Origin: Synechococcus sp. AG-679-C18
Lineage (GTDB): Bacteria; Cyanobacteriota; Cyanobacteriia; PCC-6307; Cyanobiaceae
DNA: 64,000 nt
Assembly: GCA_003210755.1 (NCBI GenBank)
Contig: QCUL01000010.1
Location: 1-64,000, forward strand
Reading direction: 5' to 3'
Of this stretch, positions 1,338 to 44,843 are shown one piece after another; position 1 is the first letter of the stretch, and the number at the start of each line of letters is the position of its first letter. Made by a program: the position numbers and the translations under genes. The notes under the pieces are model-generated. The model had not been told where the DNA came from and ran no database searches. It saw only the letters and a program-made list of their open reading frames with translations.

Positions 1338-3179
1338 TCAACTAAATATTAGGCCCCAGGATTGATAGAAACCAAATGCAACTACCCATGCCACAACCAT
1401 CGATACTGTAACCGAGAAAATAGTGAAACGAGCTGATTTAGTTTCACCCCAAATGGTTGCGACCGTGGTCAAACATGGAACATAAAGCAAGCTAAAGAGG
1501 CAGTAACTAAATCCTTGACGGAAAGTAATGACACCACCCAATGTTGTTTTTAAAGCATCACTTCCTTCCCCTAATCCATACATTGTTGCAACAGCAGCTA
1601 GTTGAACTTCCTTAGCAACGAAACCGATAATTAAAGAGACTGTAAGAAGTGGGTTGATCCCTAATGGCGCCATCAATGGTTGAAAGAACGTCCCAATTCG
1701 TCCAGCATATGTATTCATTCCTTCAGCCCCACCTGGATAATTCGTTAAGTACCAAGTGATACATGTGCCGATAATCATGAATATTGCAAGATTTCTTACA
1801 AAGGTTGTCATTTCACTCCAAACATTCAAAGCAACCTGCTTAAACGTAGGAGTTCTATAAGGAGGCAATTCAATAACGAATGGATCCTTAGACTTGAACT
1901 GGCCACTAAGATTAAATATCATGGCCAAAACAAATGCAACTACGAAACTAATAATATAAAGTAACCAAAGAGCAAATCCGCCTACAATTCCAGGCAGTAT
2001 GATTCCCAAGAAAAATACAAATACTTGCAATCTAGCTGAGCAAAGTGCAAAAGGTATGATTAAAATAGAAAGCAACCTTTGAGTTTTAGATCTAATCGTC
2101 CTAGTGCCCATGATGGCTGGAACATTACATCCAAATCCAAACAATTGAAGAACAAATCCTCGACCATCTAACCCAGCAGCACGCATGAGTGCATCCATTA
2201 GGTATGCAGCTCTTGATAAATAACCACTATCTTCTAACGCAGTCATAACTACAAAGAAGAAGGCGACTAGCGGAACAAAACCAAGTAATGCCGCGAATCC
2301 AGCATATGGACCATTAATAATGAAGTCACTAAAACCTTTGGGAAGAAAGGAAAGAGAAGGCTCAATAGCGGCGCCTTGAAGCCAATCAGTAAAGTTTCCT
2401 ACTGGATCTTGCAAGGGCATCCCCACAAACCAGATAGCCAGAAAAACGGCAAGCATCGATATAAAAAATATCGGCAAGCCGACAACTCTATTCAATAAGA
2501 TAGAATCTAATCTATTACTGAAGGTGGTAACATCTTCGGAAGGCATTTCAACACCTATCTTACACACTTCATCCATATCATTGTCAGTGACTTTATTGGA
2601 GCGGAAAAAGTTTGCTATGTCACTGCATTTATAAGAATCATCGATTGTTTGCAATTTGTCCCAAATGCCCTGTATCGCTAAAACGCATCCACTACCATAT
2701 TTAGCACTGATCGTAAAAACAGGCATATTGAGAGTTTCAGACAACTCTTTAGTATTTATCTTTACTCCAAATCGTTTAACCTCGTCCGCCATGTTTAACA
2801 TCAACACGCATGGGAGGCCTAGTCTCTGCACTTGCAGAGGCATTAAAATTTGCCTATCAATTTGAGAAGCATTAATAACACAAACGATGAGATCAAAGTT
2901 ATAATTTTCTAAAAATTTCTGAACGACCAATTCATCTTCGGTAAATCCTTCTAAATCATAAATTCCTGGGAGGTCAACAAACTCATAAGTTTTTCCATTA
3001 TTGTCCAAATTAGCTTGCATAAAATCAACAGTTAATCCCGGCCAGTTCGCAACACCAGCGTTTGACTTGGTAACTGTATTGAAAAAAGTAGACTTACCCG
3101 TGTTGGGCTGACCTATAAAGACAATTCGAGGGATTTTGTTTTTGGTTTGGACTGACGAGGCTGAACTTGCAACAATCAT
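1338..3179 (-). CDS. feoB: Ferrous iron transport protein FeoB
   Basis: 613-aa inner-membrane Fe(II) transporter with an N-terminal G domain. G1 is GQPNTGKS at 23-30, the G2 Thr lies in WPGLTV near 50, G3 is DLPG at 69-72 and G4 is NMAD at 129-132. A helical linker follows, then the membrane part from about residue 230 with the two conserved Gate regions (for example the GFVPLVAFFFVVMTALEDSG stretch and the FGCNVPA motif). It is shorter than the E. coli protein (about 770 aa), as is common for compact cyanobacterial FeoB. feoA lies directly upstream on the same strand (start 3473, stop 3216; 36-base gap), so the two form an operon. The AT-rich composition is unlike the genes after 5.1 kb. Confidence 0.96.
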   Translation of the reverse strand: MIVASSASSVQTKNKIPRIVFIGQPNTGKSTFFNTVTKSNAGVANWPGLTVDFMQANLDNNGKTYEFVDLPGIYDLEGFTEDELVVQKFLENYNFDLIVCVINASQIDRQILMPLQVQRLGLPCVLMLNMADEVKRFGVKINTKELSETLNMPVFTISAKYGSGCVLAIQGIWDKLQTIDDSYKCSDIANFFRSNKVTDNDMDEVCKIGVEMPSEDVTTFSNRLDSILLNRVVGLPIFFISMLAVFLAIWFVGMPLQDPVGNFTDWLQGAAIEPSLSFLPKGFSDFIINGPYAGFAALLGFVPLVAFFFVVMTALEDSGYLSRAAYLMDALMRAAGLDGRGFVLQLFGFGCNVPAIMGTRTIRSKTQRLLSILIIPFALCSARLQVFVFFLGIILPGIVGGFALWLLYIISFVVAFVLAMIFNLSGQFKSKDPFVIELPPYRTPTFKQVALNVWSEMTTFVRNLAIFMIIGTCITWYLTNYPGGAEGMNTYAGRIGTFFQPLMAPLGINPLLTVSLIIGFVAKEVQLAAVATMYGLGEGSDALKTTLGGVITFRQGFSYCLFSLLYVPCLTTVATIWGETKSARFTIFSVTVSMVVAWVVAFGFYQSWGLIFS

Positions 3180-3215
3180 GAATTTAAATTTGAGAGAAGT
3201 GATCTGTTGTAGAAA

Positions 3216-3473
3216 TTAAGATTTAGAAATTAAAACTAGTTTTGCTTCTGTCTTGCGAATTGCAATTTCTGTTGTACTGCCTACTCGGACCTGATAGGGA
3301 TCTCCTGCAGGAGCTTTACGCAATACTTTGACTGTTTTGCCTTTGCGTAAACCCATTGCGATCAGTCGATCCCTAAATCCATCTCCAATTTGAGAGCCAT
3401 CACTGACAACATCGACAACCATTGCTGTACCATCTGATACATCTAAATCACTTAATGTCAATTGTGTAGTCAT
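3216..3473 (-). CDS. feoA: Ferrous iron transport protein FeoA
   Basis: 85-aa SH3-like FeoA, the small cytosolic partner of FeoB. The typical sequence is visible: a DVSDG turn, IGDGFRDRLIAMGLRKGKTVKVL, and a C-terminal strand with GSTTEIAIRKTEAKLVLI. The frame is open up to 3584, but the internal ATG at 3473 (MTTQLTLSDL) gives the normal family length and start. It is the first gene of feoA-feoB. A short AT-rich palindrome-like stretch around 3504-3526 could hold a Fur site, but the match to the consensus is poor. Confidence 0.92.
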   Translation of the reverse strand: MTTQLTLSDLDVSDGTAMVVDVVSDGSQIGDGFRDRLIAMGLRKGKTVKVLRKAPAGDPYQVRVGSTTEIAIRKTEAKLVLISKS

Positions 3474-3757
3474 TTTGAAATAGCGAGGAATTCGAGATTG
3501 GGCATTAATTGCGAATGATAATTGAAAGAAGAGCGGTAAGCTATTTCGATACCAGCAAGACAAACACACATTAATTATAAACAAACTAACAATTCATGCA
3601 AGTAACATTTTATTTCTGATATTGATGCAAACGTTACCCACCAAAAGACTTTAGCATTGGTACATTCTCTTGATTATCAATTATTGCAACGCAATCAATC
3701 ATTTGACAAAGTCAGCTTCTGATCTAAGATGTATAGTACTAAAAACAAAGGAATTTA

Positions 3758-4249
3758 ATGTTTTTATTGGAATTCGAGATTATTGTTTTAATCGTTTTTC
3801 TTGTTATTGCGTATTCGAGACGGTCTGTCATTGTTAGATATTTGGCTAAGCAAAGATACGAACGTGCTGCAAAAAAAGCTATCAGTGCCTTCAAGAAATT
3901 GGAGAAAAACGGTGGTCAATTAGCGATTTTCAACCATCTCGTTAAACAAGGACATATCATTAGATCAAAGAGGCGAGTCGGCAAATTTTACATGATCCCT
4001 AATTTTATAGTTAATGGTGAAAAGCAGGATGTTATGCTACGTATGTCTGATAATAGTGAACCGTTTTGGGTTGCTTTATCTATCCTATATAAATCTTCGA
4101 TTCAAGACAATTACTTTTCGTCCGATCTTGCTGTGCCTGATCTTTGGAGTGATGATTTCGAACAGCTCTACATTCACTGGCATAATAACTTTCACAAGAA
4201 TCTCACTTTTTCGAACTCAAATGATGTTTGGATGGAAAGCATAGCTTAA
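3758..4249 (+). CDS. Membrane-anchored protein of unknown function
   Basis: 163 aa, not recognised. The N-terminus has one membrane segment (about residues 4-20, LLEFEIIVLIVFLVIAYS) followed by Arg/Lys-rich residues (RRSVIVRYLAKQRYERAAKKA), so the rest is probably cytosolic (positive-inside rule). The soluble part is about 120 aa, mixed alpha/beta by appearance, ending in an acidic and aromatic stretch. The gene diverges from feoA. It is AT-rich like its neighbours and has no obvious partner. An ATG-preceding AAAGGAATTTA could serve as a ribosome site. Confidence 0.6.
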   Translation: MFLLEFEIIVLIVFLVIAYSRRSVIVRYLAKQRYERAAKKAISAFKKLEKNGGQLAIFNHLVKQGHIIRSKRRVGKFYMIPNFIVNGEKQDVMLRMSDNSEPFWVALSILYKSSIQDNYFSSDLAVPDLWSDDFEQLYIHWHNNFHKNLTFSNSNDVWMESIA

Positions 4250-4672
4250 TTCAATCAAGCTTAATAATATTTATCCAATAATCTCAAACAACCCTCAATT
4301 CTGTTTTGCAAAAAATCTTTAATTAATTAATTATTTTTATACATATTTTAATGCTTTGGAAACTTATAGCATGCCAGCAATAGAAGAATTAAATCTTTTT
4401 AAATTAAGCTCTACTTTATTTTAATCAGATCTTCCTCAATCAACTCTCTTTCGTTTACTGATAAATAACTAAAATACTTTTATTTTTAGTTTTCTTCAGA
4501 AATAGATATCGAAAACAAATGAAGCGGGATTTTTTCAAGATTCGAGCAGAATGTCTTTTTACTTGACAGCACTAAATTATTACAGGAGCGGGAACTTAAA
4601 AGTAATTATACTCATTCCAGTCATAATGCATCAGATTTTACCAAAATTAAAATTTAGAGTAACGCTTAATAC
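4250..4672. other. Intergenic, AT-rich, no gene seen
   Basis: About 420 AT-rich bases. The only structure I see is a weak inverted repeat AACTAAAA (4467-4474) / TTTTAGTT (4484-4491) followed by TTCTTC, which could end transcription from the 163-aa gene. A TTGACA hexamer at about 4564 has no well-spaced -10 partner. Confidence 0.4.
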
Positions 4673-40676: not shown

Positions 40677-42022
40677 CGGCATCCATGTCCGCATCCACTT
40701 CAGAGCGGTGCCTCACCCTGCTCCAAACCTGGCGATCTCAGCTCCAACTCAATCGCCGGGAAGAAACCGTTTTGGCTGGCGCGGTCAGAAATTTGGATCA
40801 GCAGTTAAGCCGTCTGGCGGAACGCCGGCTACGCGTTGCAGTCTTCGGCCGTGTTGGCGTGGGCAAATCGAGCTTGGTAAATGCCCTGATCGGCCAAGAG
40901 CTCCTTGCCACTGACGTGGCCCATGGCTGCACCAGACGTCAACAGGCTTTGCCTTGGGAGATCATGATTCCTGGCCTCAACGCAATCGAGCTGGTTGACA
41001 CCCCAGGCATCGACGAAATTGCTGCTGCGGCGAGAGCAAGACTGGCAGCTCGCGTGGCAATGCAATCCGATCTCGTACTGCTCGTCTTGGATGCAGACAT
41101 CAGCAGGATTGAGCTCGATGCGTTGGAAACGTTGATCAAAAGCGGGAAACCAGTGCTTCCTGTATTGAACAGAAGTGACTGTTGCCCCCCCCAGCAACTC
41201 CCCAGCCTGCTGCAAAGCATCAGTAGAAGAATTCGGGAGCGGAGTTACAGCCCTAATCGAGCAAGGCTTCCAAATCCGATCGCCGTTTCAGCAGCCCCTC
41301 GCCAGGCCTACCAATGCCCCGATGGTCGAGTGCGCAGTAAGCAACAACCAGCTGTCGTGAACCAACTTCGCACCGCAATGATTGCTCTGCTTCAAAAGCA
41401 AGGCCAAGCCCTCCTGGCCATGAACGCACTACGGCAAGCAGAACATCTTCAACATCAACTGGAAACAGGGCGACTCGAAAGGAGACGTCAAGAGGCTCAA
41501 GGCCTCATCGGCCGCTACGCAGCACTTAAGGCCACTGGAGTTGCTGCCAACCCTCTGGCATTGCTTGATCTCGCTGGAGGCTTGGCTTGCGATACCGCCC
41601 TAGTAGTTCAGCTTTGTCAGCTCTATGACCTGCCCATGGGAGGCCCAGCAGCACGACGGCTCATGCAACGCCTCTCTGGGCATAACGCCATGATTGGAGG
41701 CGTCCAATTCGGCCTTCAGCTCGCTCTATCGGCCATACGACAGCTACTTCTCATCGCAGCCCCTTTTTCTGGCGGGATCAGCCTCGCTCCTGCGGCTCCG
41801 GTTGCCCTGGCCCAGGCTGCTTTGGCTGTACATACGACACGTAGAACTGGTCGCCTAACCGCACGTTGGTTAGTCGATCAGCGCGGCCGAGGGCTGCGAA
41901 GTACTCCAGCACCTACAACTCTTAGGCGGCGCCTTATTCGTCACGACGCCAGCTTGCAACGTCTGCTTGCAGAATGGCCCCAGCCACCTGGTCTTGGCTG
42001 GCGGGAAGGTCTCTTGCCATGA
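40673..42022 (+). CDS. Era/HSR1-related GTPase
   Basis: 449-aa GTPase, possibly membrane-associated. G1 GRVGVGKS (59-66), G3 DTPG (109-112), G4 NRSD near 164. The C-terminal half has hydrophobic and Ala-rich segments typical of GTPases with a DUF697-like tail. ATG at 40673 overlaps the CNNM stop (ATGA). The cellular role is unknown. Confidence 0.8.
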   Translation: MTASMSASTSERCLTLLQTWRSQLQLNRREETVLAGAVRNLDQQLSRLAERRLRVAVFGRVGVGKSSLVNALIGQELLATDVAHGCTRRQQALPWEIMIPGLNAIELVDTPGIDEIAAAARARLAARVAMQSDLVLLVLDADISRIELDALETLIKSGKPVLPVLNRSDCCPPQQLPSLLQSISRRIRERSYSPNRARLPNPIAVSAAPRQAYQCPDGRVRSKQQPAVVNQLRTAMIALLQKQGQALLAMNALRQAEHLQHQLETGRLERRRQEAQGLIGRYAALKATGVAANPLALLDLAGGLACDTALVVQLCQLYDLPMGGPAARRLMQRLSGHNAMIGGVQFGLQLALSAIRQLLLIAAPFSGGISLAPAAPVALAQAALAVHTTRRTGRLTARWLVDQRGRGLRSTPAPTTLRRRLIRHDASLQRLLAEWPQPPGLGWREGLLP

Positions 42023-42597
42023 CAACAACAATTGCCTTGCTCGGCACTAGCGCAGATCCACCAACATTGGGCCATCAGGCTTTATTGGAAGGCCTCCTAG
42101 TTCACTTTCAGCGCGTTGCCACTTGGGCTAGCGACAACCCAATGAAACGACACGATGCCTGCCTTCAGCTACGCAGCGAGTTGCTGCAAGCCTTGGTCAT
42201 GGCAATCGATGATCCTCGCGTGAGCATTGATCAGACACTCAGCAGCCCTCACACCATCACCACAATTGAGCGAGCAAAACAGCTTTGGCCCCATCACGAG
42301 CTCTTCTTTGTGGTGGGAAGTGATCTGGCAGTTCAGATCCCTAAGTGGAAGCAAAGCGAAATTTGGCTGAAGCGTTGCCAACTGGCGATCGTGCCACGAA
42401 AGGGATGGCCCTTAGCAAGCAATCACCTCCAAAGACTGCAAGATTTAGGCGCGAAGATCACCGTGCTGCCGTTGCAGATTCCAGAGACAGCAAGCTCAAG
42501 CATTCGCAAAGCAAGTGCAGAGAATCAAATCCCAAAACCCCTCTGGCCGCTCCTTTTGGAGCACAATCTCTACGGACTCCAAGACTCACATCCCTGA
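42019..42597 (+). CDS. nadD: Nicotinate-nucleotide adenylyltransferase
   Basis: 192-aa NMN/NaMN adenylyltransferase of NAD synthesis. The nucleotidyl-transferase motif GTSADPPTLGH (9-19) and the C-terminal SSSIRKA, both typical, are visible. ATG at 42019 overlaps the GTPase stop by 4 bases. nadE follows 6 bases later, so NAD synthesis genes are adjacent. Confidence 0.92.
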   Translation: MTTTIALLGTSADPPTLGHQALLEGLLVHFQRVATWASDNPMKRHDACLQLRSELLQALVMAIDDPRVSIDQTLSSPHTITTIERAKQLWPHHELFFVVGSDLAVQIPKWKQSEIWLKRCQLAIVPRKGWPLASNHLQRLQDLGAKITVLPLQIPETASSSIRKASAENQIPKPLWPLLLEHNLYGLQDSHP

Positions 42598-42603
42598 ATC
42601 GCC

Positions 42604-43020
42604 ATGCGTATCGCCCTGGCCCAGACCAATCCTCTGGTGGGCGATCTGTCCGGAAATGCCACACGCCTTTTGGAAGCCTGTATTCAGATCAGCAACCAGT
42701 CAAAGGCCCCACCCCCGGCGCTCGTGGTCAGCCCTGAGCTTTCACTTTGGGGCTATCCACCTCGGGACTTGCTGTTGAGTCCAGACCATCTCCAGCAGCA
42801 GAACGAGGCCCTAGTCCAGCTCCAACATGGCCTGAAGCAGATCCTGCCTCAAACAGTCTTACTCGTAGGGATGGCCGAGCCGGCACAAGACCACCAACAT
42901 CCACAGCTCTTTAATGCGGCGGCCTTAGTAGACGCGAGTGGATGGCGGGTGGTTGCCCGAAAACAGCTGCTTCCCACCTATGACGTTTTTGATGAATCGC
43001 GCTTCTCAAAACCTGCGTAA
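42604..43020 (+). pseudogene. nadE: 5' fragment of nadE (NAD synthetase, nitrilase domain), truncated
   Basis: Only the first about 134 codons of glutamine-dependent NAD+ synthetase. The nitrilase (glutaminase) domain begins normally: catalytic Glu45 in SPELSLWG and Lys120 in ARKQLL, then the conserved LPTYDVFDESR. The frame then breaks with FSKPA and a stop at 43018-43020. The nucleophile Cys of the glutaminase (expected near residue 170) and the whole synthetase domain (about 400 more residues) are missing. nadE is normally essential, so an intact copy should exist elsewhere or the junction at about 43,005 is artificial. Confidence 0.85.
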
Positions 43021-44843
43021 AAGCGGTTGAAATTAGTGAAGATCTCTGGAACGAACCAGCCAACGCCAAGACCGATAGCCGTAAACAAAATCACTGGAAT
43101 GAGATTCGTCACTCCAACAAGAATCAAACCCACGACTGCACCTCCAACAGCACCGGGCATCCTCAAAGGAATCGATGAGACCTTCATGGCAATGAAACCA
43201 ATCAAGGCACCGACAACGGAAGGAACAAGCACCATCGCTGCGCCATCACCAGCACTGAGCAAGCCATAAGCAAAACCAAAACAAGCACCAGCTGTTGCGT
43301 ATTGCTGTTTGCTCAACTCCTTGGTGTCTCGCTCTAGCAGCAACGCCGCCAGCATTGGAGAGAAGGTAAGGGCATTGAAGGTGGAGATGCCAATTGAAAA
43401 GAGGATCGTTGCGGCGAACTGCTTGTAAATAGTTCCCGTCGCGCCAGGAAAGAACAGCACCGGCAAGAACACCGCCATTTTCACCAACGAAGTTGCGATC
43501 ACGGCGTTGAACAACTCATCCATGGTGGCCATAGCCGCTTGAACGGATGTCATGCCCTCAGCTTTTTTGGCCGAGGTGTCTTCAACAACGGTGATGGCGT
43601 CATCCACCACAAGACCGGTAGCGAGAACCAGACCAAACAAGGTGAGCTGGTTGAGCGAGAACCCAAAGGCCAACACCAAAGCAAAAGTTCCGATCAGTGC
43701 CACAGGAATGGCAATTGCCGGCACAAGAGTGGCCTTCCAGTTCTGCAGAAACAGGAAGAGAATGAGCACCACAAGAATCACCGCATCCCGTAAGGAATTG
43801 GTCACGCCCTTGATCGACTGATTAATGAAGTCAGTCGTGTCATAAATGACCTGAGTCTCCAGACCAACAGGGAGGCTCTGTTCGAACTTTTCGATCACCT
43901 CCTTTACACCATCGGAAACTTGAATGGCATTACTGCCAGACAACTGATAGATCGCAACACCAACAGAAGGAGTGCCTTTGAGGTCAATCGCATCAACGCC
44001 GTAGGTGTCTCCTCCCAAGCTGACTCGACCGACGTCTCGAAGTTTGATCAGACCGCCATCATCTGTCGTTTTTAAAACAATATTCTCGAACTCCTGCTCA
44101 GTGGTCAGGCGACCCTGCAGTTGGACGGTGAACGTAAATTCTTGTCCTTCAGGAGCTGGGGAGCCACCCACTTTTCCTGCTGGCACAAGACGGCTCTGGC
44201 TATTGAGCTGAGTCACCACATCAGTTGAGGTCAGTTCATAGGCCGCGAGCTTGTCCGGATCTACCCAGAGGCGAAATGCCACCTTTCGATTACCGAAATA
44301 CGTAACTTCTCCGACGCCTGGAACTCGCTTGATGTTGTCGGTGAGATTTTTGTCTAAGTAACCGCTAATCGTCTCAACACTGTATTCCGTTCTGGAGGGG
44401 TCGGAATTAACGAAATTATAAACAAGAAGAATCGAATTCGAGGCCTTATTAACTGTGACACCAGCCTTTTTTACCTCCTCTGGCAGCTGGGGTTCCGCAA
44501 GGGAAACGCGGTTCTGCACATTCACCTGATTGATATTGCCATCGGTGCCACTGTTAAACGACACTGAGATCGAACTCACCCCATCCGAAGAGCTATTTGA
44601 GCTGATGTAATCCATATTCTCAACGCCATTGATCTGCTGTTCGAGCACGGAGGTGACGCCCTGCTCAACAGAAACTGCATCAGCACCTACATAAGTGGCC
44701 TGAACTTTGACGGTTGGAGGAGCAATATCGGGGAGATTTTCAATTGGCAAAATTGGGATTGAAATCAATCCCACAATCACAATGAGAAGGCTGCAAACGG
44801 TACTGAGGACAGGCCGACTGATGAAATTATTAGAGGCAGACAT
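42978..44843 (-). CDS. RND efflux pump, N-terminal part, truncated
   Basis: 621 aa of an AcrB-type proton-driven transporter; full members are about 1,030-1,100 aa. First membrane segment near the N-terminus (VLSTVCSLLIVIVGLISIPILP), then the porter domain, then membrane segments with the TM4 charge pair VVDDAITVVED and RND motifs up to about residue 610 (FTNFNRFYAGFEKR). The second half (porter C-domain, TM7-12) is missing and the C-terminus DSSKTS is foreign. Homology to the pump stops at about 43,002, exactly where the nadE homology starts to appear on the other strand. Together with the adaptor it would form a tripartite pump, but this copy cannot be functional. Confidence 0.85.
   Translation of the reverse strand: MSASNNFISRPVLSTVCSLLIVIVGLISIPILPIENLPDIAPPTVKVQATYVGADAVSVEQGVTSVLEQQINGVENMDYISSNSSSDGVSSISVSFNSGTDGNINQVNVQNRVSLAEPQLPEEVKKAGVTVNKASNSILLVYNFVNSDPSRTEYSVETISGYLDKNLTDNIKRVPGVGEVTYFGNRKVAFRLWVDPDKLAAYELTSTDVVTQLNSQSRLVPAGKVGGSPAPEGQEFTFTVQLQGRLTTEQEFENIVLKTTDDGGLIKLRDVGRVSLGGDTYGVDAIDLKGTPSVGVAIYQLSGSNAIQVSDGVKEVIEKFEQSLPVGLETQVIYDTTDFINQSIKGVTNSLRDAVILVVLILFLFLQNWKATLVPAIAIPVALIGTFALVLAFGFSLNQLTLFGLVLATGLVVDDAITVVEDTSAKKAEGMTSVQAAMATMDELFNAVIATSLVKMAVFLPVLFFPGATGTIYKQFAATILFSIGISTFNALTFSPMLAALLLERDTKELSKQQYATAGACFGFAYGLLSAGDGAAMVLVPSVVGALIGFIAMKVSSIPLRMPGAVGGAVVGLILVGVTNLIPVILFTAIGLGVGWFVPEIFTNFNRFYAGFEKRDSSKTS

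Follow-up and report, generated by a model that had tools for sequence, protein, structure and literature searches.

Two truncated genes meeting on one contig

The stretch of DNA analysed here, which we call the window, comprises bases 1-64,000 of a contig of 70,515 bp (C10). It belongs to a draft assembly of 2,626,211 bp in 91 contigs, with an estimated completeness of 93.67% and a contamination of 0.17%; the source is probably a single-cell amplified genome. Close to position 43,000, the beginnings of two genes that lie on opposite strands run into each other, in the following arrangement:

41,974-42,597: nadD, directly before nadE
42,604-43,020, plus strand: open reading frame with the start of nadE, 138 aa
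42,604-43,003, plus strand: 5' part of nadE (codons 1-133 and about one further base)
42,999-43,003: join between the two loci, bases compatible with both, from comparison at both loci with four relatives
42,978-44,843, minus strand: open reading frame with the N-terminal half of an RND efflux permease, 621 aa
44,853-45,992, minus strand: RND periplasmic adaptor, upstream of the permease (TIGR01730, 163.9 bits)

The open reading frames and the family scans bear out the proposal, made in an earlier note on this DNA, that a truncated nadE and the N-terminal half of an RND pump meet here tail to tail. The nadE frame covers only positions 1-103 of the 256 of CN_hydrolase and only 5-129 of the 546 of the NAD+ synthase model NF010588, while the permease frame matches ACR_tran from position 3 and its coverage stops at position 504 of 1021. 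Both truncated products are close to full-length proteins of the four closest relatives: the nadE part is 80-81% identical to their nadE, and the permease frame is 91-92% identical to their permeases of 1,137-1,138 aa. Among the 80 matches listed for the nadE start, the best eight are from Synechococcus, Cyanobium and Prochlorococcus, with identities of at most 61%, which points to a marine-type picocyanobacterium as the source. The details given in the earlier note were largely right, as Glu45 and Lys120 of nadE are both found in the frame and the frame with the pump half does end at 42,978 on the other strand. The nadE frame ends at 43,020, as stated, and has 138 aa; its nadE-derived part comprises 133 codons, where the note gave 134. 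The tail residues past Arg133 (43,000-43,002) come from the opposite strand of the pump and, reciprocally, the last residues of the permease frame, past the join, come from nadE sequence.

Position and origin of the join

The base-by-base comparison places the switch within a few bases. The window follows nadE up to 43,001 in all four close relatives, and it follows the pump starting from 42,999 in G007 and G013 and from 43,000 in G014 and G005; bases 42,994-42,997, left of the switch, likewise agree with the pump. The overlap directly supported by the relatives is 2-3 bases. It would extend to five bases, GCGCT at 42,999-43,003, if the nadE of this strain reads CGC for Arg133 followed by the conserved Tyr, as 43,002-43,003 hinge on the strain's own nadE codons. 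The Arg133 codon is CGT or CGG in the four closest relatives and CGC in several more distant congeners. On the nadE side, 14 of 18 relatives gave a match to the motif, every one of the 14 with identical spacing and a Tyr following the Arg; of the other four, three have the Tyr, and so does L022 when read by eye. The pump motif was located in 4 of 17 relatives, and the pump side of the join depends on those four. The switch had been placed within about 15 bases at 43,000-43,017; our comparison retains the narrow overlap and moves it slightly to the left, to about 42,999-43,003.

Collinearity was assessed by blastn against two complete congeners, G014 and G007, and with local gaps the contig falls into two blocks:

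5,140-43,001: collinear with the nadE neighbourhood, at 1,534,433-1,574,467 in G014 and 1,892,771-1,929,622 in G007
42,994-64,000, and on to the contig end at 70,515: collinear with the pump neighbourhood, at 1,743,097-1,770,572 in G014 and 2,089,828-2,117,266 in G007

Against both congeners, 43,001 is the last base with DNA homology to the nadE locus, and 42,994 is the first with homology to the pump locus. The join skips 168.6 kb on the G014 map and 160.2 kb on that of G007, and it is the single long-range break detected within 5,140-70,515. The contig is thus made of two blocks that lie in different places in relatives and have one meeting point, as an amplification chimera would be. The join also preserves order and orientation, which makes it deletion-like.

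In relatives, nadE and the pump are ordinarily intact genes. The nadE gene is uninterrupted in all 29 relatives, where its open frame spans 567-648 aa (573-587 aa for every one of the 18 congeners), and the best match to the pump is full length, 1,134-1,145 aa, in 17 of the 18 congeners. In the eighteenth (G003), the match is a fragment of 273 aa located at a contig end. When the junction string was searched with up to 3 mismatches, one of 31 genomes of the genus carried it, namely the present genome alone.

Two other features of the contig were noted. At its left end, 3-4,251 matches G030 at 641,809-646,058 (85%), and the sequence from 4,597 onward matches the same genome near 1,969,790-1,972,012, about 1.3 Mb from the first match. 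The start of the window resembles ferritin, FeoB and FeoA (by eye), and the change occurs in AT-rich, apparently noncoding DNA (4,252-4,596), just past an open reading frame ending at 4,249. This segment may be a second switch, corresponding either to a relocated iron-uptake island or to another chimeric join. At its right end (70,515), the contig stops about 310 bases, on the G014 map, short of a block in which G014 and contig C29 are 97% identical. This block is probably a ribosomal RNA operon, in which case the contig would have an ordinary end caused by a repeat.

The remainder of nadE and the skipped interval

The earlier note had suggested searching the rest of the genome for the 3' part of nadE, and it was found at the start of contig C64 (5,751 bp). 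This contig opens within nadE, in frame, and is stop-free over 432 codons; it carries the sole full NAD-synthase domain (PF02540) found in the assembly. After nadE, C64 is collinear with the genes downstream of nadE in G014 and G007, the next gene resembling alanine dehydrogenase (by eye). The part of nadE absent between C10 and C64 amounts to about 45 nt. The other matches to PF02540, on C15, C2 and C32, were considered as a second nadE and rejected, being short (20.6-25.9 bits, with 36-67 of the 242 positions covered; the cut-off was 21 bits, and the three are marked as above it). The idea of a rearrangement with a second nadE elsewhere is not supported in this incomplete draft, as the only full NAD-synthase domain found is the continuation of the same gene on C64.

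Two genes downstream of nadE, at 2,656-4,119, C64 encodes a SagB-family dehydrogenase (TIGR03605, 114.5 bits; Pfam Nitroreductase), and the DNA of G014 and G007 aligns at about 72% over this region. A stretch of G014 that lies among the genes downstream of nadE (1,580,119-1,581,555) sits on C33 in the present assembly, and C64 continues without it; congeners thus differ in gene content around nadE.

The DNA that the join skips is also present, at least in part. Parts of the interval align to six contigs (C64, C33, C13, C41, C39 and C35), in a comparison that took ends or parts of contigs, and its island-like middle matches poorly. These observations bear on the possibility of a true deletion, by which the interval would have been lost, the two loci fused and both genes wrecked. 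The preserved order and orientation at the join are what a deletion would leave, and the assembly is without the C-terminal half of the pump. Nevertheless, the remainder of nadE and pieces of the interval exist on the six contigs, so we rejected a simple deletion; their presence contradicts it unless those contigs derive from another cell. Furthermore, no full NAD-synthase gene was found besides the one that a deletion would have wrecked. We regard a true deletion as next to impossible.

The search for the lost halves had a mixed outcome: the nadE remainder was recovered on C64, while the C-terminal half of the pump, with the G014 protein as query, was not found in this 93.67%-complete draft. 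Its best matches, at 45% identity or less, lie inside other pumps with frames of 1,045-1,107 aa. Contig C24 was considered as the other half and rejected, as its two open reading frames resemble SecD and SecF (by eye). The 7.5 kb that precede the pump break in G014 have no collinear match in the assembly save for 976 nt on C18 and about 200 nt on C35, a pattern consistent with a stretch missed in the draft. A reciprocal junction from pump to nadE was not found either, which weighs little in a draft of this completeness.

This last point matters for a true excision or translocation, in which the interval would persist elsewhere, perhaps as a circular molecule or within part of the chromosome copies. 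Such an event would account for the persistence of an interval that the junction leaves out, and in an incomplete draft the reciprocal pump-to-nadE joint could have been missed. However, C64 starts inside nadE with no pump sequence ahead of it, and the other half of the pump is missing. The event would also break both genes, and the junction occurs in one of the 31 genus genomes examined, the present one. We consider it very unlikely. Its more specific form, in which some chromosome copies lost the interval by true excision at a few bases of microhomology, so that broken chromosomes existed beside intact ones, appears exceedingly unlikely.

A proposed chimeric molecule and its passage through the assembly

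Based on our results, we propose that the join of the two distant loci arose as a chimera during amplification, at a short microhomology, and that the assembler followed it, a reading to which we give a probability of about 0.92. The two blocks, the continuation of nadE on C64 and the interval parts on other contigs support the chimeric contig that the earlier note had offered as one of its explanations, and a short stretch at the join is compatible with both loci. In a phi29-type amplification, the displaced 3' end of one locus would anneal through a few matching bases to the other locus and be extended on that strand, giving a chimeric molecule. At a fork near 43,003, the assembler would then have continued along the chimera into the pump, leaving the genuine remainder of nadE to form C64. 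The single-cell origin, the amplification step, the strand that switched and the existence of reads from the intact locus are the elements of this scheme that we infer. Some observations speak against a chimera: the C-terminal half of the pump was found nowhere in the assembly, so that intactness is seen for nadE alone, which continues on C64 minus the missing segment, and the join preserves orientation, as a minority of published amplification chimeras do.

The start of C64 offers a further indication. Its first nucleotide corresponds to nucleotide 446 of the nadE coding sequence, according to the constant spacing between Arg133 and Trp153 and to the alignment with G007. In an assembly graph with k = 55 that forks after 43,003 (nucleotide 400 of the coding sequence), the contig made from the true branch would have the 55-mer 346-400 at its start and, once shortened by 100 nt at that end, would begin at 446, which is where C64 does start. 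A k of 55 is the single-cell default. With an Arg133 codon other than CGC, the fork would come after 43,001 and the predicted start would be 444, two bases off. This model was built post hoc, after the gap of about 48 nt was known, it concerns one site, and the CGC codon on which it relies is itself deduced. For a second test of the trimming, no clean pair of adjacent contigs was available when contig ends were compared with 520 kb of G014, and C29 was likewise unhelpful. The workflow of Stepanauskas et al. (2017; PMC5519541) runs SPAdes with --sc, 100-nt end trimming and a 2,000-bp floor, and it is cited for marine cyanobacterial cells by Berube et al. (2018; PMC6122165). The shortest contig of the present assembly, at 2,036 bp, is consistent with this floor. 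The fit of fork and trimming gives good support to the chimeric join, short of proof. If the fork model is right, the assembler met reads of intact nadE. This suggests that, once the trimming applied to an assembly is known, a fork in its graph may be betrayed, even without reads, by the point at which an adjacent contig begins.

An error of the assembler alone, arising without any chimeric DNA molecule, is another possible source of such a contig, and misassemblies do occur in drafts of this type (PMC6122165). In the present case, the two loci share just about 2-5 consecutive bases at the join, well below the usual k-mer, and no run of N lies there. Because so few consecutive bases are shared, an error of the assembler alone is less likely than a chimeric molecule, and we judge it improbable.

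An amplification chimera would mean that the locus probably holds nothing new biologically and is an ordinary sequencing artefact, with a significance that is chiefly one of data quality. Neither the 138-aa "NadE" nor the 621-aa "RND permease" should be taken as a sign of gene loss, and the gene order spanning 43,000 is unfit for use.

Comparison with known chimeras and single-cell assemblies

For phi29 multiple displacement amplification, Lasken and Stockwell (2007; PMC1855051) describe chimeric joins made when a 3' end, once displaced, acts as a primer on a different strand; in more than 70% of joins it does so at 2-21 complementary bases. The present join is like theirs in that it connects distant stretches of one genome with few shared bases. 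There are also clear differences. In their data, 85% are inversions, mostly over less than 10 kb, whereas the present join is direct and, on the maps of relatives, bridges about 160-170 kb; moreover, their chimeras were seen in reads, and ours is known from an assembled contig. Direct joins, which keep orientation, make up 69 of their 475 chimeras, and 58 of those 69 connect sites more than 10 kb apart; among direct joins over such distances, complementarity was found in just 27.6%. On these published counts, the present join is of a documented minority class, in which a short overlap is neither required nor typical. The assembly itself resembles those of single-cell marine Prochlorococcus and Synechococcus (PMC6122165, PMC5519541), sharing their contig floor of about 2,000 bp and having one contig start that fits 100-nt trimming. 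For this workflow, Berube et al. (2018; PMC6122165) give a rate of 1.5 misassemblies per 100 kbp, at which a contig of 70.5 kb such as this one would be expected to carry about one.
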